Source of the DNA: Umbilicaria muhlenbergii
Lineage: Eukaryota > Ascomycota > Lecanoromycetes > Umbilicariales > Umbilicariaceae
Direction of reading: 5' to 3'
Assembly: GCA_000611775.1 (NCBI GenBank)
Contig: KK106984.1
Span: 2,942,952 to 3,006,951 of the forward strand
DNA length: 64,000 nucleotides
Part shown: one piece after another, positions 1,387 through 25,849 of the stretch
Numbering within the stretch: position 1 is the stretch's first letter
Layout: each line of letters starts with the position of its first letter
The notes under the pieces: model-generated
What the model was told of the DNA's origin: nothing
Seen by the model: the letters and a program-made list of their open reading frames with translations, nothing else
Database searches by the model: none
Made by a program: the position numbers and the translations under genes

Positions 1387-2982
1387 TCATTTGCTGCTGC
1401 CATATAGTCTGCCGAAGTCAAGCTTCACTCGCTTTCCCTTTGGATCATCCGAAGATAGACCAATGTGGGCCTCATCGCGCCCGTCATCTTCGCGTACCTG
1501 GTACCTGATCGAAGGCCTCTTCTTCAGCTCAGCTTCAATCTCTTCCTCTGAGTAGCCGCAGGTATGTGGGCCAAGCTCGTTCAGGATCGCTTCAGCCATG
1601 TTTATCGCTGCTCTGTATTTGCCGATTTGTCGACGCTTCCGCCGGAATTCGCTCTTGCGTTCCACGTGCATCCAGATTACGTATGTGCCAATTGTCCACA
1701 AGCCATTGGCGATGATGGCGATTATCGTTAGGTTGAAAGAGAAACCCCATTTGTACCTGTTTGTGGCGGTACATTGGACGTTCTGGGGGTACGCGGCGTA
1801 GGAAAATGGATAGCTGAAGCTGTTGATGGCCAAAAGGGACATATAGGTTTGGTTCTGGCGAGAACATACTTCCGAACCGTAACCGTAAGAAATAAGAGAT
1901 GTGTAACTTTGGTTCAACTCTTTCCAAAGCGTTATGTTGGGTCCAGAGTCAGTGAACGTATTCACTTTCAGGATGGCACGACTAGCATCGTAATCATGGG
2001 TTACAGCGCTATTGACGTGAACAAATGTAATGTTTGAGACGGCGGCGAAATCGTCGCAATCCATGAGCTGACCCCCATCTGCTAATCGAACCCACGTGTG
2101 TAGGGTCGCGGCGTATCCGGTCATAGCACTTAGTAGGGTTGGGTACAAAGCCACCCAGAGAACGCTCAGCGTCAACCAGGCCATTGATATTCGGTGTCTG
2201 ATCTTGCAAGCAGAGGTTGGTCCTCGGAATCCAAGTGCAAGAAGGGAGCCAGTTGAGAAAATTGTAATCGAATCCATGGATGAACATGCGAACAGTTCAT
2301 AGGTGACGGGGTCGCTTTCAAAGACATAGACCACAGATGCTCCGATGACGCGGTAGATAATGTAGCTTAGGACCGCTTGCCCACCTCTTCCAATGACTAC
2401 ATCGAAGGCCACATCAACGATTTTGGCCATCCCAAACGGCATGTTGCCGACAACGATATCGATGTTCACGAACGTATTGAGGAAAGTTGAGCTGCTAGAG
2501 CTGGAGTCCACCTTACCACAAGCTAAGGGAAACGGAGACTTATTGACGTAAGTCCAATGCGAAGTTGAGCTCCCAACACCATAGAGAATGCTGGGCAACA
2601 GCGCCAACGGAGGACCGACTACCGTCAATAGAGCTGCAATAGAAAGTAGCCCGATGTGCAGCTTTTTATAACGTAATTTGGATCTATCAATAGTTCTGGT
2701 TGGTAGGTGTGTGCCAGCCTTGCCGCTCCAGTTCCCGCGCTCTCCGTATCGTGGTGACGGTATACTTGGAATAGGCGCGATGGTGTTCTCAGGAGTAACC
2801 TCATTGGTGGATATCTCAGATGTTTTCAAAGATTCAAGTTCATAAGGGTGCGAGGCCACCATAGGTGTAACATCATCATCTTCATCTGCAGCTCTTTTGA
2901 AAAGTACGCTCTGAGTAAAATGATTGCGGGAGTGTTGGGGTTTAGGGTGGGTAGTAGTTTGATTGCATCTTGAGTTTTGCAT
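1387..2982 (-). CDS. Multi-pass fungal membrane protein, unknown function
   Basis: This is an uninterrupted 531-aa frame. A polar, disordered N-terminus (about residues 1-105) precedes hydrophobic segments near 110-135, 203-222, 266-290 and 412-440. The stretch between the last two segments (about 300-410) carries several N-glycosylation sequons (NIT, NQS, NQT) and Cys residues, so it is probably the extracellular loop. The C-terminus (441-531) is basic and then charged, as expected for a cytoplasmic tail. This architecture is common in hypothetical membrane proteins of Pezizomycotina; I know of no assigned function. The start is the first ATG of the open frame. No intron is needed. Confidence 0.8.
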   Translation of the reverse strand: MQNSRCNQTTTHPKPQHSRNHFTQSVLFKRAADEDDDVTPMVASHPYELESLKTSEISTNEVTPENTIAPIPSIPSPRYGERGNWSGKAGTHLPTRTIDRSKLRYKKLHIGLLSIAALLTVVGPPLALLPSILYGVGSSTSHWTYVNKSPFPLACGKVDSSSSSSTFLNTFVNIDIVVGNMPFGMAKIVDVAFDVVIGRGGQAVLSYIIYRVIGASVVYVFESDPVTYELFACSSMDSITIFSTGSLLALGFRGPTSACKIRHRISMAWLTLSVLWVALYPTLLSAMTGYAATLHTWVRLADGGQLMDCDDFAAVSNITFVHVNSAVTHDYDASRAILKVNTFTDSGPNITLWKELNQSYTSLISYGYGSEVCSRQNQTYMSLLAINSFSYPFSYAAYPQNVQCTATNRYKWGFSFNLTIIAIIANGLWTIGTYVIWMHVERKSEFRRKRRQIGKYRAAINMAEAILNELGPHTCGYSEEEIEAELKKRPSIRYQVREDDGRDEAHIGLSSDDPKGKRVKLDFGRLYGSSK

Positions 2983-3803
2983 TTCTGGATATGATTTTTT
3001 GAAATCGATGATGAGGTTTTACCTTCGAAAACGTGCGCAAGGCCAGAGCAAAGCAGAAAGAATAACAATGCAGCATCGCAGGGAGCGAAGCTACCTAGGT
3101 AGCTAGTGAGAGAGAGGGAATTACTGCGGCGCCAGAGGCGCAGAGGGCACATACTTCTATTGTTAGGCTGTACAGAGCCTTGCGGCTCAGTGCATACAAC
3201 GTTTTATACACCCGTCTGCCGTGCAGAAGCTGCGATATGATGTTGAGTCAGACTACTCCGTAATCAGCTTAAGAACTGTCTTTGAGGGGTCCCTTTGCGC
3301 ATATCATGGACCAGTAAGCCTCGTTCGTGTAGGCAACGACGTAACGTATTGGATCGCATCCTAAAACACTAGGATCATCATGCACGCAGCCAATGATTGG
3401 TGTCAAATCCTTATGCTAACGAGGACGTAGTTAGACTGCACCACCTCCTGACTCTGGCTCGCAAGCCTATAAGATCGGAGGGTGGGGTTGGTAATATTCT
3501 GTAGTGTAACCTTATGCGCGTGAATGTCCTGCTAGCTCGCCATGTTGAAGAGTTTCAGTTGACTTTGTAGTAGATAATCATAGACGGGACGGGCTTTTTG
3601 TCAATTGGATGCCGACGATTGATGTTTTGTCTAGGCAACCGGTTTGAGGTTACAGACCTCGCCTCCAGCTGGTTCTAAGGCCTTGAAATGCTCAATAACT
3701 TTGACGAAATCGTTTAGTGCTATCTATGAACCCCAAAGCCTTCCAAAAGATAAGTGCTGGTCACACGTATATACAACCTACCTTGGCGAGCAGACAAGCC
3801 CCA
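2983..3803. other. Intergenic region upstream of the membrane-protein gene
   Basis: It should contain the promoter of the minus-strand membrane-protein gene and the 3' flank of the methyltransferase gene. No gene, repeat or clear regulatory element was recognised. ORFs in it are short and lack family features. Confidence 0.5.
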
Positions 3804-4928
3804 TCATTTCTGGAAGACCATCACTGCATAGCGAAACGTGCCATTCGCGTAACCTCTCCTCATCGCGCGGAATGCTTGCAGGAACGCGAGGCCGTCTCGG
3901 CCCTGAGAGATTGCGAAAGCCCAGAGCGCAGGCGACTGTACTAGCGACCATGAGATATCCCTGCGAAGGATAGCATCGTGTGAGTCTAGTTCGAAATTCC
4001 GGAAGTGATGGGTGTTGAATGTCTAACTTACCACGTCTTGGACACGTCCTTGCTGATATCAAACGGCTCCGAAAAGACTCTAAGGCCAGCCTGCTTGGCG
4101 TATTCGACGTACTCGGACTGAGTGCACAGAGGCGGAAGCAGCATCCCATCTTCGATCGGCCTGATGTCCGCTTCTATCTGCGCATTAGTCAGGTCCGCCG
4201 CCTTGAACCAATCTGCCACAACGAGCTTCCCACCCTTCTTCAACAACTTCGCCGCGTTGCGAAAGAATAGCGACTTGTCGGGTAGATGGCTCATCGCTTC
4301 AGATATCCATACGTAGTCAAAGGCTGCCTCGTTGGGCGCTGTTGTGAAATAGTCGCCCATCTTCTCTGCGTCCAATTCTATGTAGCGCACGCCGCCATCA
4401 CCCAGTTTGATGAAGCCAGATGCATCAGCCTTTTCTTGGCCCATAGCAGCAGCAGCTTCTCGTGTTATCTTCCCCGCGATCTCGACCTGTCTCCCACTGA
4501 TAGTAACCCCGGTGACCTTGCAACCATGGTTCTTCGCCAGATGCCGCGATGTGCCGCCAATGCCACATCCCACATCAAGCACACTGCTGCCAGCACCCAG
4601 TCCCGATTTTTCCAGTAGCAGGTTTATGAGCTGCACCTGCGCTTCTTCTTTTGTGTCCGAGGCCGAGAGGAAGTAGCCGTGGTGGATGTGCTCGCCCCTG
4701 CTTGTCAGCAGGCGGGCGAGATGAAGTGGAGTGGAAGTGGGGTTACCAGAGGGAGTAGTAGTAGTCGGAGGCTAGTTCGTAGTGGTGTTTGATGCGGTCT
4801 TTGAGCGCGCCGAAGGTGGTGAAGGGTTCGGGGGCGGGGATCTCGTAGTTGTTGCCGACGTCGGCTGATGAGTAGGTGGGATGGATTGGGGAGGGAGCGG
4901 CCTTGTGGGCTGCTGTTGGGGTTGCCAT
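3804..4928 (-). CDS. SAM-dependent class I methyltransferase, three exons
   Basis: Exons are 4928-4747, 4697-4032 and 3960-3804, joined by introns of 49 nt (GTAACC...CAG) and 71 nt (GTAAGT...CAG), giving 334 aa. Both junctions split a TGG codon and restore conserved text: SLW|GEHIHHGY at the first and KTW|DISWS at the second. Motif I (LDVGCGIGG, about residues 101-109) binds S-adenosylmethionine, and ISEAMSHLPD fits the acidic post-motif region. The layout matches the fungal methyltransferases related to sterol C-24 and gamma-tocopherol methyltransferases, many of which act on small secondary metabolites. The substrate cannot be read from the sequence. The gene is divergent from the caleosin gene, sharing a 618-bp upstream region. 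All exons are intact. Confidence 0.9.
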
Positions 4929-16317: not shown

Positions 16318-16355
16318 ATGTCTTGCAACCTCAAATGTCTCAATTGCTGTGGGAA
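16318..16355 (+). pseudogene. Possible Cys-rich ORF start cut by the Gypsy-1 LTR
   Basis: An ATG at 16,318 begins MSCNLKCLNCCGN, a Cys pattern like the microprotein at 15,251. The codons run straight into the LTR at 16,356. No matching continuation was seen beyond the other LTR at 31,324. It could be chance. Confidence 0.22.
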
Positions 16356-16658
16356 TGTCAGGGCCACCATATATATAGTACGACAGTACGACACTATGGT
16401 ACGACACTATGGTACGACACTATAGTACGACACTATGGTACGACACTATAGCTTAGATATGATGACTCAGCGCCTAGCGCCTTGGCATCAAGTGAAAACT
16501 CTTTGCAAACAGGTGCAGAAACCTGCTTCCTCAGTGATCAGTTTTGCCACTGAATAAAAGACGTATAACCATTGCATTGACCTCATCATGACTATATTGC
16601 CTATGACACCCTGTTCAAACATCACTATGACACTCTGTTGTACACCTCACCTCTTACA
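16356..16658 (+). repeat. Gypsy-1 5' LTR
   Basis: 303 bp, TGTCAG...CTTACA. Its first 100 bp keep CpGs, including a short tandem array of the unit tacgacactatgg. Its inner end is mutated (CG to TG/CA) relative to the 3' LTR. Confidence 0.88.
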
Positions 16659-18201
16659 TACTGATCACTCAGTACCTTCAGGCGAACGGTCACGTCAGAA
16701 GCAAATAAGACATGATGACATCAACACTTCAATCTCATCAGGTCAGTGAAGCAGTCAATTAAGTTGAATCAGAGCCTTCAATTAACAGGTTTACATTATC
16801 AGCTGTTGACATTCTTGCTTCTGACATTGTCAATGACAATGATGAACATATCAATGCAGGTAACTTTGATGACTTCATTAATGATCTTGAAGCAGTCACT
16901 GCCCACAATCAGGAAGTCATTGAGCATCAGTGACTACAATTATGACACATATGACAAGAAATTGAGTTTGAGGATAATAAAAAAAAGCTTCAGAAGCTCA
17001 ATCAACACCTGTAAGAAGATTCTTTAATTATAATAAACTCAAGGAACAACACAAGTTCATCACATGAATTATGATGTTAAGTTATGACAGACATCACACC
17101 TTCCCCTTTTCAACATCTTATAAAGTCATGAGAGCCTCATCTCTATGCAGGAGGTGTTAAAGTCATGAGATGAAAACTTCAAAAATATCTGAATGAAATC
17201 AATCAGAATCAGGAGTTAATGTCAGAGTAATTCTTTATTGAATAAGATTTCATCATTTAAGCAGGCACCTACCTTGAGAAAATAATCATGAGTGACTGAT
17301 GAAAGTAAAAAGAGCAGCATGATCACATTTAAATCATTTATGACAACTTTTTAAAGATTTTAAAGAAGAACTTATCTTCTGATGAAGATATGAATGAATG
17401 AAATATCATCATCTTCAATGCAGTTGAATCTTATAATCATGATATAATCATCTTTTGATATGATAAATTATCAGAACTTTACTGCTTCCTTTCAGCTTCA
17501 CATAAGGAAATCAGTGAGATGCTCATTTAAGATCACTGATGATCAAGACTTCCTCATCATGTCTTGATTGAATTATGATGTTGAGATTCAACGCAGGTTG
17601 CAAGACAGTCAGTGCAGGAAATTTCAACACATCTTGACATCATCATCAATCATGAACTGTTCTGAAGCTGCTCAGACATCAAAAAGGATCATTAAAGCAA
17701 AACTGACAATAATAACAAAAGTACAACACAGATGTCATATTATGACAGAAAAGAATTTCTCATCAAATAATAAACAACCTGCACTCAATTCACTCAATTC
17801 AGCTGTGAAAGAGGAAACAACTCATGAGGTTTTTATCATGAAAGTGACTGCAATCAGAGTCAGAATCTTAATCATATATTAATCACTGAAGGAGCAATTA
17901 TGATGATGACATGAATATTCACAACCTCCTCATATTGACAAGGAGACTTCATCTCAAGGAATGAAGTGAATGCACAAAGGTCAGCAGATCTCTGCATTAA
18001 ATGTGAAGTCATTAATCACTGAATAAATGATTATATGACTGAATGATCTACAGTCATCTTCACTGCAGTTAATGTGAATAAATGATTCACAGATCACCTT
18101 CAGTTTACTTCATTATTAATTATTGATGATATCTCACGTCTGATATCAGAGCAACTAGAGGTGAAACTGCATATAATGACAATGAGTGATATGATGAGCA
18201 A
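16659..18201 (+). pseudogene. Gypsy-1 gag region, decayed
   Basis: Translation in the sense frame gives a hydrophilic, helix-rich gag-like protein (for example HINAGNFDDFINDLEAV near 16,850) broken by many TGA/TAA stops. Nothing can be read continuously. The gag call comes from position between LTR and pol and from composition. The hAT target site ends this half of the element. Confidence 0.55.
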
Positions 18202-18383
18202 ATCTCCACTATGGTGGCTGTTGAGATGAGACAAGATTAAATTTCTAGTCCCTGTCCTGTCTCAGTCTCATCTCATCTCAGTGATGATTTTTCAGTTTCA
18301 TCCTGATCCTGTTGACAGAATGAGACAGGAATAGTTTTATTGTCTCTGCATCATTAATACATCATGATGACAGTAACTTAAGC

Positions 18384-19057
18384 CTAACCTAAAGAGGCTT
18401 GATACAATATTACATTAAGATAGACATCATTTAAGGAGTCATCAGTTTACATTTCATAATAGATTGTTACATTTGATCATTAGAACCTCTCACTTTCAAA
18501 GAAGAATATCATGTATCCTTCTGCTGCTTCTTGCAGTGCCTTCAACGTGATACGCTGTATCTGAAAGCTCATGTCCTCAGTAGGCATCATTCCAGCCATG
18601 ATCTCATGAACAATTCTACTGAATGAGGCTTTTGAAATGAGGAGATCTGTCAACTTTTGATATCATTTGATTTCACGCAGCGCTTAAACTGTACAATCAT
18701 TGAGATAGATCATTAGAATTGATTGTTACTATGCTGATATAACTTACCACCAGGCCGTGCAGCAGGTTTAAGCATTGTAAGCTTTTCAGTTAAATGTGAA
18801 GTTCCTGCTGCTCTTGCAGTGGCATCAGCTGTTCTTCATGCATGAATATCAATATGATACTGTGCCAGGCGCTGTTGATAATTGGTGATGAGGATGACAG
18901 TGATGGCAGTGATGACTTGTGCGTTGGTTTTCTTCTTCCTAGAATTGGCCTTGGCCTTGGCCTTGGCGTGCGCAGCATGAGCTGAACCAGCTTTTGCTTT
19001 TGCTTTTGCAGCAGTCTTTCCACCAGTTACTGAGGCTTTTCAGGGTGCTTTGATCAT
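18384..19057 (-). pseudogene. Histone H3-like gene relic carried by the hAT element
   Basis: Exon 1 is 19,057-18,748 and exon 2 runs from 18,688, with a 59-nt intron (GTAAGT...TTCTAATGAT...CAG) that joins in phase. Across the junction the protein reads RPGV*ALREIK*YQK, matching the canonical H3 aN-helix RPGTVALREIRRYQK without a gap; the second stop is TGA where H3 has Arg (CGA to TGA). Next come LTDLLISKASFSRIVHEI (helix 1), KALQEAAEGY (helix 2) and NVTIYYEM (VTIMPKDI-like, before helix 3). Spacing between EI and ALQE is 20 residues against 16 in canonical H3, a longer loop 1 as in CenH3-type variants. The N-tail is about 60 residues longer, Lys/Ala-rich, with TGGK. The gene lies on the strand opposite the transposase. 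It is dead here, with about seven in-frame stops. Confidence 0.82.
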
Positions 19058-19079
19058 TATTTGTTTCATTCATGTCATT

Positions 19080-19671
19080 CTGAAATGTTAGAAATGATTG
19101 TTATGTTGAGAATACAGAACCTACATGTTATGAACTGATGATTTATTGTGATAATGAATGATGTTGAGATCATAAAGTGAGTGAAGGTGATTGTGAATAA
19201 TGTTGAGATCACTGAAATGTTAGAAATGATCATTATGTTGAGAATACAGAACCTACATGTTATGAACTGATGATTTATTGTGATAGTGAATGATGTTGAG
19301 ATCATAATAAAGTGAGTGAAGATGATTATGAATGATGTTGAGATCATAAAGTGAGTGAAGGTGATTGTGAATAATGTTGAGATCACTGAAATGTTAGAAA
19401 TGATCATTATGTTGAGAATACAGAACCTACATGTTATGAACTGATGATTTATTGTGATAGTGAATGATGTTGAGATCATAATAAAGTGAGTGAAGATGAT
19501 TATGAATGATGTTGAGATCATAAAGTGAGTGAAGGTGATTGTGAATAATGTTGAGATCACTGAAATGTTAGAAATGATCATTATGTTGAGAATACAGAAC
19601 CTACATGTTATGAACTGATGATTTATTGTGATAGTGAATGATGTTGAGATCATAAAGTGAGTGAAGGTCAT
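19080..19671. repeat. Tandem array, about 174-bp units
   Basis: Units start with ctgaaatgtt at 19,080, 19,212, 19,386 and 19,560. The middle two are 174 bp and nearly identical, the first is 132 bp and the last is partial. Each unit contains sub-repeats of gatgttgagatcataaagtgagtg. The array lies just upstream of the H3-like gene's start and creates a spurious 198-codon minus-strand ORF. Confidence 0.9.
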
Positions 19672-19971
19672 GATGTTATTTCAGTGTCATGTGCTTTTAC
19701 ACTAAGCTTAAAGTGTGCATCAATAAGATCATGTTGACATCACCCTCACCTCAAATTCCTGTCACCCCTCAACTCAATCACTCACATTTTTATAAATTGT
19801 TTATCTCTTGACCTGCAAGCAGTCTTCTCATCAGTCATTGAATGCACATCTTTTACTCATGATATTTCATGTCCTGACCTTTGTGATGAGCCTCATGACT
19901 CTCATGATGCACATTCTAGCCCTTATGATCAGTCAGCTCAGTCTGCTCTACTAAGGATGAGTGTTACCCCT

Positions 19972-20225
19972 GTTGAAGAAGGCTTCATTAGTGAGTTTTA
20001 ACTTCTTTTATTAAAAAAGATGATATAATGATCTGTTGACTAATTATACATGACAGGCCTTGTAGAACTCTCATTATCATCAGCTTAAAAAAGTGATTCT
20101 CAAGCTACCTCTGTTGCAGAAGTCTTCACTAATGAGTTTTAACATTTCTTATTTTAACAAGATGTTATAATGATTTATTGACTGATTATACATGACAGGC
20201 CTTGCTGAATGCTCCTCATCATCAG
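19972..20225. repeat. Two-copy duplication of about 115 bp
   Basis: The segment from gaagaaggcttcattagtga to catgacaggccttg (19,976-20,060) recurs from about 20,117 to 20,206 with only scattered differences. Each copy has a GTGAGT/ATGAGT-like donor, an internal TATAATGAT and a CATGACAG acceptor, so an exon-intron unit seems to have been duplicated. Confidence 0.65.
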
Positions 20226-21809
20226 TGCAAGTGAGTGAGTCCCTCATGATGACATCATCAATGAAAAAACACACTCATACAGCGCAATCTGATGATGAGA
20301 ATGTGCAAACTGAGCAAATTTTAAACTCTTCAACACCCCCTGTTCTTACTACCCCTCATAAGCCGCGCACAAAGCGAATAAAGACTGAAGTGAATAGTGA
20401 TATTAGCAGTTTTCAAATAAAGATCAGTAGGTATTCTAATGATTTATTGTAATGAAATCACTAACCATGCATTCTTAGCGCTCAAAACGCTTAATAGGTA
20501 TACAAAACCTTCAATTTATATTAAAGGTGAAGAAGAAATGTTCATAATGAAAAAGGTTCAAGCAAAAGCGGCTGTCAAGGCAGTAAACAGGACTGTTGAA
20601 GCGCCTATGAAAGACCTCACAGATTTCAGCCTGAAAAAGACTGCTGACTCATACTTCACAACATCTCAGAAGGTGATTGAGGCGCATGAACTTCATCATG
20701 AGAGGATGCAGGATCCTGATGAGGCAGTGTTATTGAGAGCTGATGATCATGATTGAGCTGCTGTCTTTCAAGCTAGGAAAAAGCTAAGGCTTACTGATGC
20801 GTGGAAAGCTGTCAACTCAGCAGATCAAAAGGCTATGAAAGAGAAGTGTCAACTAAATGTTCTGACAGATTGTTTTAATACTGATGAAAGTGATATGTGT
20901 TTTTCTTTCTACATTTTGATTCAGAAATCAACTCACAAATGATAACTGAATTCTTTCAAGTGCAACATGAGCAACAGCTGCATCATGCAGCATATTAAGC
21001 ACAACAGGAAGAGAAATGAGAGCATGCAGAAGTTCTCAGCACAATAAAAACATTAAGAGAAGATCATGAATCTGCATCTGAGTCATTTGTCTTTATGATA
21101 ATATTATAATGATCTCTTGTAATGATCACGCATGCTTATGACTATGCAGGATTCAAAAGATGATGAATATCAGAGAATTGTCACCACCAGACTTGCTGTC
21201 TCTGTGAAGCATTATGAATGAATCACTTGAATTAATGATCTTCAAGACCTAATTGATGCTGAAGATCCTGACTCAGCTGACATCATGAGAAAGTTTCATA
21301 AGCAGATTATGAACTCAGATCATATTGAAGATTCAGAAGAGCAGTCAGTGCAGGTCTTTTACATTTTAACATTTCATTATAATGATACTTATTCAAAACT
21401 GTTTAATTATCTGTACTCTGCTCTGAGACAACAGGTTCTGAAGAAGGACGTTATCATGATTGCTGACTCACAGGTCAAGACAGTTCATACAGAGTCATCT
21501 GAAGCATACTTTAATGAGGATGATCAAATGTCTGATTTCATAATCAAAGAGTCATCTGAAATTCTTAAGGGGGATGATAATGAGGATGATGCTGATCTTC
21601 CCTCAATTACTACAGGCTCTGATGACTTCATTCAGCATCTTGAAGCTGTTTTTGCCCCTGACAACAATAGTATCCTCATAGAGAGTGAGGTAGCTACAGG
21701 ATATGAGGAGGAAGAGCTTAAGAATGAAAATGTGAGTAATGCAAATGCAAGTGATGCAAATGCAGGTGATGCAAATGCAGATGATGCAGATGATGCAGAT
21801 GATGAGTAA
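20192..21809 (+). pseudogene. hAT accessory open region (not transposase), unknown protein
   Basis: Three long segments in this stretch are open despite heavy mutation: 20,192-20,450, 20,440-20,756 and 21,285-21,809. They are separated by intron-like gaps with CAG/TAG acceptors and the shared TCTAATGAT motif. Readable parts are hydrophilic: a PHKPRTKRIKTEV nuclear-signal-like patch, a Lys/Ala-rich helix (MKKVQAKAAVKAVNRTV) and an acidic C-terminus with an Asn-Ala-Asp repeat ending at 21,809. It precedes the BED-finger transposase on the same strand. It may be the transposase N-terminal part or a second gene. I recognise no family. Confidence 0.5.
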
Positions 21810-22400
21810 ATGAATGAATCAGAGTCTGAATCTTAATGAAGTAGACAAGCATTATCTGACATGATCAGACATTTTCAAGGATGTTGACTGTTCAACAAAT
21901 GTTAAAAACATCAATCAGACTGTGTGATTCATCAGGTGACATTGATCATCATAATCATGCATTAAAATTACTTTTTCAGAATAGTCTAGTCTTTAGTTCA
22001 ATGCATGTATGTACTTTCTTAATTAAGTGATTAAAATTCAAGCTCTGCTCAAATAAACTGTTTGATTCAAAGGGCTTTCTGTATTCTCATACCCTTTAAC
22101 ATCATTATTCATCTTAAGACAGCATGACTTCTTCACAATTTACTCTTACTTCTGAAGATGACTGAGCTTCAGCTTCACAGTCAACTTCTGCTGACCTCTT
22201 ATTTATCACTGAACCATCATCAGCATGTCTTTTATGAAACAGAAAGGGTGACTATGTTCTCTGAACCTTTGAGTTTCATGATGAATTCAAAGAGTGGTGA
22301 GAGAGAATGAAATGAGGTCAGGATACACTCAAGAAGATGACAAGATACAAGTCTGTTCTCTGAGATAATACAAAGTGAAAGGCTCTGCTGTGAGCATCAT

Positions 22401-25089
22401 ATCATGAGGCTGCTGAAATTAAAACTGAGAAGCCTGCTGTTATCTGCAAACTTTGTGAGAAAGTTCTGAAACATCTTAATTCTAATGATGCAGGGAGCAA
22501 TGGTATGACAAAGCATATCAGCATCAAAAATTGTGAGGTGAATTGAACAGGGCAGATGACTCTTCCTCAGTTATTACAAAAGGTACTGACTTTTTTAAAC
22601 CTCTGTTATAATGATCTATTCTAATGATATGACTTCAGTTCATCAACTCTGTACTCACTAAGCCCGCGTCTAGCAGATTTACACAAGAAGTCTTTGAGGA
22701 TCAACTTGTTCAAATAATCCTTAACCTCAACATGTCTTTCTGCTCAGTTGAACATCCCTCATTTTTACGCTTGCTTGATTTTCTTCAACCTGGTGTTGAG
22801 GCTCCTCATTGAACCAAGTTCTCTCACCTTGTCAAGAAGTGAGCAAAGAAACTTAAACAAACTGTGTTAATAAAATTAAAATCAAGGATGAAAGTTTCTT
22901 TAACACTTGACTGTTGAACAAGTTCAAATAACCTTGCATTCCTTGGCATCACTGACTACTTCATAGATGATAATTGAGATTATCATGAGGTTCTTCTTGA
23001 GTTCTCCCCTCTTCACGGCAAGCATACAGGGAAGAATATGACAAAGGTGATAATGAATGTGCTTAATAATTATGAGCTCCTGAATAAGCTCCTTGCTATC
23101 ACAGCTGACAATGCCTTAAACAATGAAACACTGCGCATGAAGCTGGCATCACTGCTATGAAAATGAAAGATTCATTGAAATGAAGACATGAATACTGTCA
23201 ACTGCATGACACATATCTTTCAACTATCCGTCAACGCACTACTACACTCACTCAAAGTGTCAGCAAACAATGACAATCCTACAAAGAAGTGAGATGTCAA
23301 AACATTGAGTCAATTAAAAAATGTGCATGAGAAGGATAAAAACTTTGATTTTACATTTCAAAAGGTTTTAGTCTTTCTAATGATATATTATAATGATCAA
23401 TTAACTTTGCGTTCAGGTTCATGCATTAGCCATTGCAGTCAACTCATCATCACAATGACTTGAGAGATATAAAGCCACTCAGATTAATACACTCCCTCAT
23501 TTACAGAAGAGTCTAATTGAAGATGTTGTGACAAGATGAAACAGTTCTTTCTTCATGCTTGAATGAGCATATGAGATGCGTGAGTTCAGCAGAGAATGAA
23601 TAAAAGAGGAGAAGTTTATATGATGAGTTCTGATACTCAGTGACATTGAATGAGAGCAGGTCAGGTATCTCATCAGTTTACTGCAATCATTTCAAAGCTT
23701 TACAGATGCACTGGGAGTGACAGATCAGTTAAGCATTTTTTGCACTTGAATCACTTATAATGAACTTTTCAATCATTTAGAGTGACAGCATCAAGAAGTT
23801 TGAAAGTTTAAACTCAAATGATCTTCTAGTCTGCAGGAGGCTATTGCAGCAGTAAAGAACAAGCTTTCAGCATATTATGAGTGAATGTATGATGAGTGAG
23901 GAGTGTTGTTTGCAGTAAGTGCCTGCCTTGATCCTTCTTCAAAGCTTGATTTGTTCAAGGTAAGCAGTCAACATTTCTAATGATTTATTGTAATGATTTT
24001 AGACTTTATATTTTAATTGCTACTGCAGGGCGCTGAATGAGACTCTGAGGATTATGCACAGTATCAACAAGAGTTCCTTGATTATTATGAAGTGAATTAT
24101 CAAGAACAGGAGACTGTTCAGTATCAGTCATGACAACTCACGTCTTTTAGCATGATGAAGAAATCTCTGAAGAGTGTTCTTCTAGCTTCAAGGAGTTCCA
24201 CGCTTCAGAGATCAAGGAAGATGAAAAATTATCAAGGGAGTGAAGCCTCATGATACTTTAGTGAAATGAAACTAAAGCATGACAACATTCTTCTTCTATG
24301 AAAACAGTTGAAGATCAGTAAGCCTGTCTTATCACAAATGGCAAAGGACATTCTTGCTATATCAGTAGCTGATGTAGGTGTGAAGCGCCTTTTTTTCATG
24401 ACATGAGATGTTGTTATCTATCATCAGAGTCACTTCAACCCAGACACTATATCTGACATCATGATAATCAAAAAATGTGACACTACTCACATTCATGATA
24501 TGATGGCACATGAGGAAGGTATACAACAACATATTTAAAATGATTGATCTCCTCCTGCAGATGAACTCACCCTTAATGATCAAGAATGTGAAACACAGTG
24601 AGTGAATATGAATGATGCTGAGAGTCTTACTCACATTTCTTTATCACATGATGAAGGTGATGCATCAAATGTCAGACATAAAGGTGAAGGAGGATATATG
24701 TCAGCACATAAGAGAGGAAAACAATGAGTCATTGAAGTATTCAAGTATGTTACTTAATGTAATATATTGTTGTCTGTCTAATAAGAAGCAGTGATACTGA
24801 GGAGTTAATGAACATGAATTATGATGTGAATGAGCTGAATGATGATGAGCCTCAAGCATTATCACCTGATGTTAATCATATGAGGTCACTCACAAAGCTA
24901 CAGGATGTTGCTGATGTAACTGAAGACTTAAATGAACTATCAATTCTATCAGGTCAGCATGATAAACCACTAAACTTGAGTTTCATACTCATGAAAACAT
25001 CAATCAGCTCAAGAGCAAGACTAGGATATGTCTTGAGTAACAAGAGGCAGCTGCAAAGAAAACAGTCAAGATTAAAGTCATTAAAATAG
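22401..25089 (+). pseudogene. hAT-superfamily transposase, decayed
   Basis: A BED-type zinc finger (CKLCEKVLKHLNSNDAGSNG, then MTKHISIKNC) is at 22,455-22,545. The catalytic core follows: DN*DYHEVLLEFSPLHGKHT near 22,970 and LLAITADNALNNET near 23,090, the classical hAT TxDNASNN region. The C-terminal dimerisation domain is at 24,300-24,400 (PVLSQMAKDILAISVADVGV, then KRLF). A basic tail ends at 25,089. At least three introns with the shared motif interrupt it (near 22,583, 23,365 and 23,960). Stops are almost all TGA at positions where homologues have Trp or Arg. The gene is dead. Confidence 0.9.
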
Positions 25090-25140
25090 ATTGATAGTCT
25101 AGATCATTATAATGGATCATTACAATGTATTAATTTCCCT

Positions 25141-25354
25141 GTGTCTGAATTAACCTTTCCCCGTGTCTCAAAACCACTGACAGCCATATATAAGAAGTCA
25201 CGTGACCGGGATCCTGTCAGGATCAAGGGACGGGATGGAACAGGACTCTCATCTCAGTCTCAGAGAATGAGACTACTGCTTGATCCTGTATCTCATCTCA
25301 TTCCGTCCCGTCCCTTCATCCTGAACTGGGACTCCCGTCTCAGCGGTCACCCTA
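25141..25354. repeat. CpG-retaining right end of the hAT element
   Basis: The last 200 bp keep CpGs and GC-rich motifs (cgtgaccgggatcc, cccgtcccgtccc), whereas the matching left end (18,210-18,300) has lost them. The end carries sub-repeats of the type gggacgggatgagac, typical of hAT subterminal regions. Confidence 0.75.
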
Positions 25355-25849
25355 ATCTCCACAATATTCATATATTATCAACAACAGCAGTCAGAGTAAT
25401 ACAATCACATGAGACATTATCAATAAGCTGTTCTTATCAACTGAATCCTATGAGGCTCAAGGCAATGCATGAGGTAATGTGATTAAGCTATCAGAGTCTG
25501 TTGTACTGATGATTACAGTGTACAACACTGATGATCAACCTTACTGCTATAGCAATTGTTTTTTTATCACATAAGACAACACATCAGCTCCTTTTGTCCT
25601 CAGGTTATCATTTTTAGTTCATGCAAACTCAAATCACTACTATGATATGAGTAAATTCTTATGAAGAAAGTCAAAACATACTACTGCATGCTGTATATTC
25701 ACTGTCAGTGAAAAGAAGGTGTTGAAGAATGTTTTACATATGAACAACCTCATCATTATTAACTGCTTTATAAGGTCAGTGAATCTAGTGACTGATATAA
25801 AAAAATATACCCTACAGATGAACTTGTTGTGATATGATAAAAAGTATGA

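Follow-up and report, generated by a model that had tools for sequence, protein, structure and literature searches.

A histone H3-like gene in three families of hAT transposons of Umbilicaria muhlenbergii, probably resident and under selection

A relic of a histone H3-like gene (H3L) lies inside a hAT transposon of the lichen fungus Umbilicaria muhlenbergii, and the question raised by this locus is whether such a gene is a passenger taken from the host or a gene of the transposon itself. The initial annotation, made for the window (the whole analyzed stretch of 64,000 nucleotides, C4:2942952-3006951), considered a histone-carrying transposon to be new. In kind it is not, as hATs with H3-like genes were published for plant-pathogenic fungi, Pyrenophora in 2013 and Mycosphaerellaceae in 2019, and in the available parts of both articles they are read as captures of host genes. 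The published cases of H3 in hATs have been understood as accidental captures that then died. What is new here is evidence for H3L as a resident gene, not a recent capture, which comes from a search of the whole genome (34.8 Mb, 7 contigs). The product of a host gene at window 1387-3018 (minus strand) has its best match with a species name in Lasallia pustulata (Umbilicariales, Lecanoromycetes), at 57% identity, and one further record reaches 68%; the host is thus most likely a lichen former close to Lasallia.

The hAT element of the window belongs to a family designated F1 and has the following features (F2 and F4 are related families described below).

18202..18209, unstranded: target-site duplication, left copy ATCTCCAC, perfect 8 bp
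18210..25354, plus strand: hAT element F1, 7,145 bp, with ends TATGGTGGCTGTTGAGA... and ...CAGCGGTCACCCTA
20186..21809, plus strand: "central ORF", open frames between H3L and the transposase
22394..22546, plus strand: BED-type zinc-finger-like stretch of the F1 transposase (PF02892, 20.2 bits, just under the cut-off of 20.6)
22693..23974, plus strand: F1 hAT transposase blocks, broken by stops and collinear with the F2 and F4 transposases
24245..24472, plus strand: hAT C-terminal dimerisation domain with 3 stops (PF05699, 28.6 bits, cut-off 21.4)
25355..25362, unstranded: target-site duplication, right copy ATCTCCAC, perfect 8 bp

These features bear out the earlier description of a 7.1-kb hAT with a perfect target duplication. 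The 8-bp duplications, the terminal inverted repeats (TATGGTGGCTGTTGAGA / TAGGGTGACCGCTGAGA) and the C-terminal dimerisation domain (C4:2967196-2967423 in contig coordinates) fit the hAT superfamily; PF05699 is also above the cut-off in an F2 element (C2:6629898-6630134). Two pieces of the central ORF were scanned without a Pfam match, and tblastn of this ORF against F2 and F4 gave no match at E <= 1.

The window element is nested within another repeat (window 16353-18203 and 25363-25824). The loci L026 and L021 carry the same neighbouring repeat without F1, joined over the insertion point, but they are paralogous sites and not the empty site of the window element, because their target bases differ from ATCTCCAC.

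The H3L gene occupies the minus strand of the left part of the element, with exon 1 read first.

18748..19057, minus strand: H3L exon 1, opening at the ATG at 19057, with a long basic N-terminal tail and two in-frame stops
18689..18747, minus strand: H3L intron 1, in phase 1 of codon 45 (H3 numbering), with the intron motif at 18696-18715
18494..18688, minus strand: H3L exon 2, with helix alpha-N, helix 1, long loop 1, helix 2 and two in-frame stops
18480..18493, minus strand: start of H3L intron 2 and deletion point

The initial annotation had recognized an H3-like relic here, and indeed exon 2 (18662-18480, minus strand) matches the Histone domain PF00125 with 31.4 bits against the curated cut-off of 26.4. 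The window copy is a relic both by its stop codons and by a deletion of its last exon: some 190 bp have been lost between 18480 and 18486, and with them the last part of intron 2 together with exon 3, which encodes loop 2 and helix 3. This segment is kept in 16 of the 17 other aligned rows, the seventeenth (L022) reading N there. Consequently, the VTI segment before helix 3 that had been reported for the window is absent from this copy; it is real for the F1 family, where copies with exon 3 retain the H3 landmarks of loop 2 and helix 3 (IH.KRITI..KD).

Comparison with the host H3 confirmed that loop 1 of F1 H3L is 4 residues longer and that its N-terminal tail, rich in lysine, is longer by about 60 residues. 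This tail starts differently and does not contain the canonical ARTKQTARKS. The F1 row is 42% identical to the host H3 row, and a near-complete read of the copy L011 (X at stops) matched H3 and the centromeric Cnp1 in PDB with E from 1e-19 to 7e-21. A chance match to a histone is ruled out by the PF00125 scores above the cut-off, by the PDB matches and by the existence of a genome-wide family.

The initial annotation had also noted an intron motif common to H3L and the transposase. The motif TAATGATNTATNNNAATGAT has 7 matches in the window against 0.05 expected, all of them inside F1, in agreement with that claim.

18696-18715 and 25103-25122, minus strand: motif TAATGATNTATNNNAATGAT
20437-20456, 21107-21126, 22609-22628, 23378-23397 and 23978-23997, plus strand: motif TAATGATNTATNNNAATGAT

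The matches lie mostly in apparent introns of F1 genes, and the motif is perhaps a doubled branch site. Just upstream of H3L, at window 19075-19680, there is a tandem repeat of about 174 bp, whose copy number varies among elements.

The body of H3L is present at 16 further places in the genome. Nine full-length F1 elements were checked at both ends, and 8 of them have the 8-bp duplication, perfect in 5 (the window copy, L009, L011, L014 and L015), with 7 of 8 bases matching in L020 and 6 of 8 in L010 and L012; in the ninth, L018, the right end was not found, leaving the duplication unseen. The flanking DNA differs from one copy to another. Thus, H3L is borne by the element, as had been proposed: many copies carry it between the same ends and within their own duplications. 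The same observations rule out a one-off insertion of the host H3, and the 42% identity rules out a close relationship to the host gene. Three short F1 copies with perfect duplications, in L022, L025 and L026, have no H3L.

The initial annotation had suggested looking for an intact frame in other copies. They do keep exon 3, but every F1 frame that was read is broken, with 2 to 6 in-frame stops in each of the 18 H3L rows (the window among them, and each row counted over the part present). Moreover, L018 has a 7-nt insertion in H3L, and the rows L019, L022, L023 and L024 are incomplete or partly masked. In L017 the H3L-bearing stretch is tandemly duplicated, 1,804 bp apart (C2:1639345 and C2:1641149). 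In L026 two ends of short F1 derivatives, a right one at 2222 and a left one at 4732, face each other over a stretch of about 2.5 kb, which is flanked by the same 8 bp GGGCTGAG, as if an element and its flank had been tandemly duplicated.

F1 is not the only family with H3L. The PF00125 scan of the genome yielded 44 matches, including 13 from F1 and 16 from a second family, F2; the matches outside hATs are canonical H3 (L028), centromeric H3 (CenH3, L029), and H2A-type and related histone-fold proteins (L030-L034, assigned by reading). A third family, F4, was found via a marginal match at C1:3988019 and comprises at least 35 places. F3, at C1:2171830, is a single decayed H3L relative with a frame change in mid-gene; no transposase in the right layout was found nearby, leaving its link to hATs unproven. 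The F2 locus L027 (C2:6619500-6629400) contains a pair of type-A and a pair of type-B H3L genes, four in all; four matches are also found at C3:3464613-3470153, and three in each of two clusters on C5. The domain matches of type A have no stops in all seven cases, those of type B at least one in all nine. The ends of F2 and F4 elements were searched for and not found.

The transposases of F1, F2 and F4 are about 31-39% identical to each other; those of F1 and F2 align in three collinear blocks, as do those of F1 and F4. An F1 transposase stretch used as a query matched at least 63 places in the genome. All three families share one head-to-head layout of H3L and transposase: a divergent transposase lies within 7 kb of at least 44 of the 67 H3L domain matches (at least 11 of 16 in F1, 11 of 16 in F2 and 22 of 35 in F4, these being lower bounds taken from lists of best candidates), and 23 of the 67 have none within this distance. 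A convergent or same-strand transposase is found within 7 kb of none of the 67. Within 15 kb, at least 13 matches of F1, 16 of F2 and 27 of F4 have a divergent transposase, and F4 also has two convergent and seven same-strand cases. Among random loci, a divergent transposase is expected within 7 kb for 0.7% and within 15 kb for 1.3% (1.2% in a run with fewer draws). That three families keep this layout, and that the orientation never departs from it within 7 kb, counts against repeated passive capture (transduplication), in which hATs would have taken the host H3 several times and carried it unused.

Within this genome H3L seems to be restricted to a single clade of hATs, because transposase matches of less than 30% identity have no paired H3L, except for the one at C1:5900845, which itself belongs to F2. 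F2 relatives are found near a contig end (C5:12190-27628 and C1:5900845-5902678); the H3L matches at C5:14048 and C1:5902499 score equally, perhaps due to a recent duplication. A hAT transposase at C2:146648 (to 148345), whose frame is open over 785 codons and which has no paired H3L, is possibly recent or domesticated.

The introns carry information about the origin of H3L. Intron 1 interrupts codon 45 in phase 1, and the host H3 has an intron of equal phase in codon 44; such a near coincidence is what capture of an H3 gene would lead one to expect. F1, F2A, F2B and F4 agree in the codon and the phase of intron 2 (in F3 the donor is present and the acceptor eroded), while the host H3 and CenH3 both read straight through this site, so that the shared second intron, missing from host genes, speaks against repeated capture. 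The position of intron 1 near the host H3 intron, together with the shared intron 2, is consistent with the H3Ls descending from an H3 gene that had introns, and with a common ancestor of theirs that would have lived after the gain of intron 2.

For the constraint tests only transversions were counted, because decay produces transitions. Between F1 and F3, codon position 1 has 11 transversions, position 2 has 6 and position 3 has 26, and 28 of these 43 are non-synonymous against 36.8 in random expectation (P 0.0002, the strongest of the constraint tests). Non-synonymous transversions are also rarer than random in all six pairs formed by F1, F4, F2A and F2B (P 0.0003, 0.0005, 0.0010, 0.0032, 0.015 and 0.048), though these pairs are not independent of each other and the compared blocks were chosen by protein alignment, a choice that favours constraint. 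In the two wrong frames, the F1-F4 comparison yielded P 0.56 and 0.996. Pairs internal to F2 show weak or no constraint (A1-A2, P 0.06 or 0.01 depending on the direction; B1-B2, P 0.20).

Within F1, the H3L frame has 149 variable sites with transitions only and 4 others (14 of the 18 rows), and the former are spread evenly over codon positions (47, 60 and 42). The F1 transposase behaves likewise, 300 of its 321 variable columns in 10 copies being transitions. The preferred contexts are CG and CC, not CA, and the classical signature of RIP (CpA preference) was not found among the transitions of these 10 copies; RIP proper is likely behind the F1 transitions. The picture that emerges from the substitutions is of an H3L frame under purifying selection from family to family and without constraint once a copy is dead, F1 copies decaying by transitions. 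Such amino-acid constraint is a further argument against passive capture.

We consider it rather probable that in this lichen fungus H3L resides in a hAT clade as one of its own genes and has been under selection there. It would then have evolved mainly as a transposon gene, translated by active elements. The ESTs published for H3L of Pyrenophora are among the arguments for this reading. H3-type histones act as H3-H4 pairs. Since its loop 2 and helix 3 landmarks are kept, H3L could plausibly enter nucleosomes, pairing with the host H4 through a histone fold of H3 type, and by its presence there might help the element. With the ARTKQTARKS start replaced, chromatin containing H3L would lack the ordinary H3 tail, and silencing dependent on K9 methylation may take hold less well on new copies. 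Such use of H3L against silencing is the function that we would prefer, yet it is a guess, and even with the rest granted we would call it doubtful, or a little better than that. Equally tentative words suit the wider proposal of a counter-defence, according to which H3L is an ancient histone of the hAT clade that predates the split of several Pezizomycotina classes, is selected, and shields the element from heterochromatin and RIP.

If H3L is indeed resident and selected, a transposon has a nucleosome subunit among its own gene products, and a histone joins the tools of genome parasites. The possible gains would be chromatin opened for transcription, new copies spared H3K9 methylation, or DNA marked for transposition.

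Passive capture, being the published view for Pyrenophora and Mycosphaerellaceae, deserves comparison with the present case, in so far as the available parts of the articles allow it. The hAT of Pyrenophora tritici-repentis (Manning et al. 2013, PMC3538342) is 5.6 kb long and comprises a transposase, a central ORF and an H3-like gene; there are 26 nearly identical H3L copies, the gene has ESTs and tail insertions and is described as neither H3 nor CenH3, and the arrangement is read as transduplication. Compared by description, F1 resembles it in having terminal repeats, a transposase, a central ORF and H3L, and differs in its length of 7.1 kb, broken copies, H3L introns shown, and the presence of three families in one genome. 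No Pyrenophora H3L was found among 65 matches of one search, nor among the 120 matches listed out of 4,576 in another. For Pseudocercospora fijiensis and five other Mycosphaerellaceae, Dhillon et al. 2019 (PMC6710886) report a hAT of 9.5 kb that carries the H3-like gene once or twice, with 8-bp duplications and inactivated copies; the accessible text reports no introns and infers that a transcript was captured, in a single event about 100 Mya. The second H3-like copy of P. fijiensis is reported to have an insertion of 16 residues. F1 is similar in its 8-bp duplications, H3-like gene aboard and dead copies, while the present H3L has two introns, up to four H3L genes occur per element (F2), and the transitions have no CpA preference.

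As far as available descriptions go, the elements also resemble plant Pack-MULEs, DNA transposons with host-derived coding sequence, from which they differ in that their layout, which includes a transposase, seems autonomous and that the extra gene is the same in all three families. No report of H3L-bearing hATs in lichen fungi, or of several such families per genome, was found in the literature searched, which consisted mostly of papers outside subscription journals. A transposon survey of Umbilicaria pustulata, in its available part, lists one hAT element and mentions histone only in a reference.

Three trees bear on the number of origins. The first (51 rows) was built before F3 and F4 were added. 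The second (41 rows) includes both but drops the long-branch rows P0027, P0021, P0036 and P0057, as well as H3 rows P0001, P0002, P0099 and P0123, CenH3 rows P0008, P0012 and P0018, and F1_L010; the third and widest restores all dropped rows except F1_L010. In the 41-row tree, with the long-branch rows out, all eleven H3Ls are on one side of a branch (96/95), closer to one another than to the host H3, contrary to what repeated capture predicts. F1, F3 and F4 group together both there (93/91) and in the widest tree (99/100). In the 51-row tree (97/93) and the widest tree (82/92), F2 is joined by proteins from Talaromyces (Eurotiomycetes), Geoglossum (Geoglossomycetes) and Watsoniomyces (Lichinomycetes); in the 41-row tree they come together only within the wider H3L group. 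In the widest tree the H3Ls are not one clade, F1+F3+F4 and F2 with the others forming separate groups, as passive capture would have it, though one clade is not rejected (p 0.294). A single origin of the H3Ls is thus favoured by the shared introns and one tree (41 rows), and not proven. Overall, we regard repeated passive capture as rather unlikely.

Alternatively, H3L could be a host chromatin-variant gene taken up by hATs in several lineages, with a host copy persisting, perhaps in Talaromyces; the constraint could then have acted on the host-resident gene instead. Intact H3L-like proteins are indeed annotated in Talaromyces, Geoglossum and Watsoniomyces. Yet among the PF00125 matches of this genome outside the hAT families there is no intact host H3L, and the only H3L apart from hATs is the solitary, decayed F3, which makes this origin improbable.

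The third possibility is derivation from CenH3, perhaps with targeting to centromeric chromatin, at which the initial annotation had hinted. The H3Ls share the histone fold, the helix order and, in copies keeping exon 3, a KRVTI-type loop 2 with canonical H3 and CenH3; they differ from both by the longer tail (in F1) and its other start, a loop 1 of 0 to +4 or more residues, and the extra intron. The hint at CenH3 is backed by the loop 1 length of F1 (+4, as in the host CenH3), by the CenH3-like STDLL...FSR of F1, by the best PDB match of L011 (fission-yeast Cnp1 with 77.9 bits, the highest-scoring H3 reaching 74.4) and by an AU test on the 41-row tree that does not reject H3L and CenH3 together (p 0.235), but the CenH3 clade excludes H3L in all three trees (98/95, 99/93 and 97/86; bootstrap 97-99%), loop 1 is of canonical length in F2A (and +2 in F2B), and the intron near codon 44 of H3, present in H3L, is missing from the host CenH3, so we hold this derivation to be very improbable. 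As placed in these trees, H3L appears to be neither canonical H3 nor CenH3.

In the 51-row tree, F1 joined algal rows on long branches, among them a Haematococcus protein with a long-branch warning. The string LAAIHGKRITI of F1 H3L recurs in P0027 and P0049, divergent H3-like proteins of the green alga Haematococcus lacustris. Finally, P0092 of Clonostachys rhizophaga contains two divergent H3 domains in one chain, which is reminiscent of the F2 element with several H3L genes.
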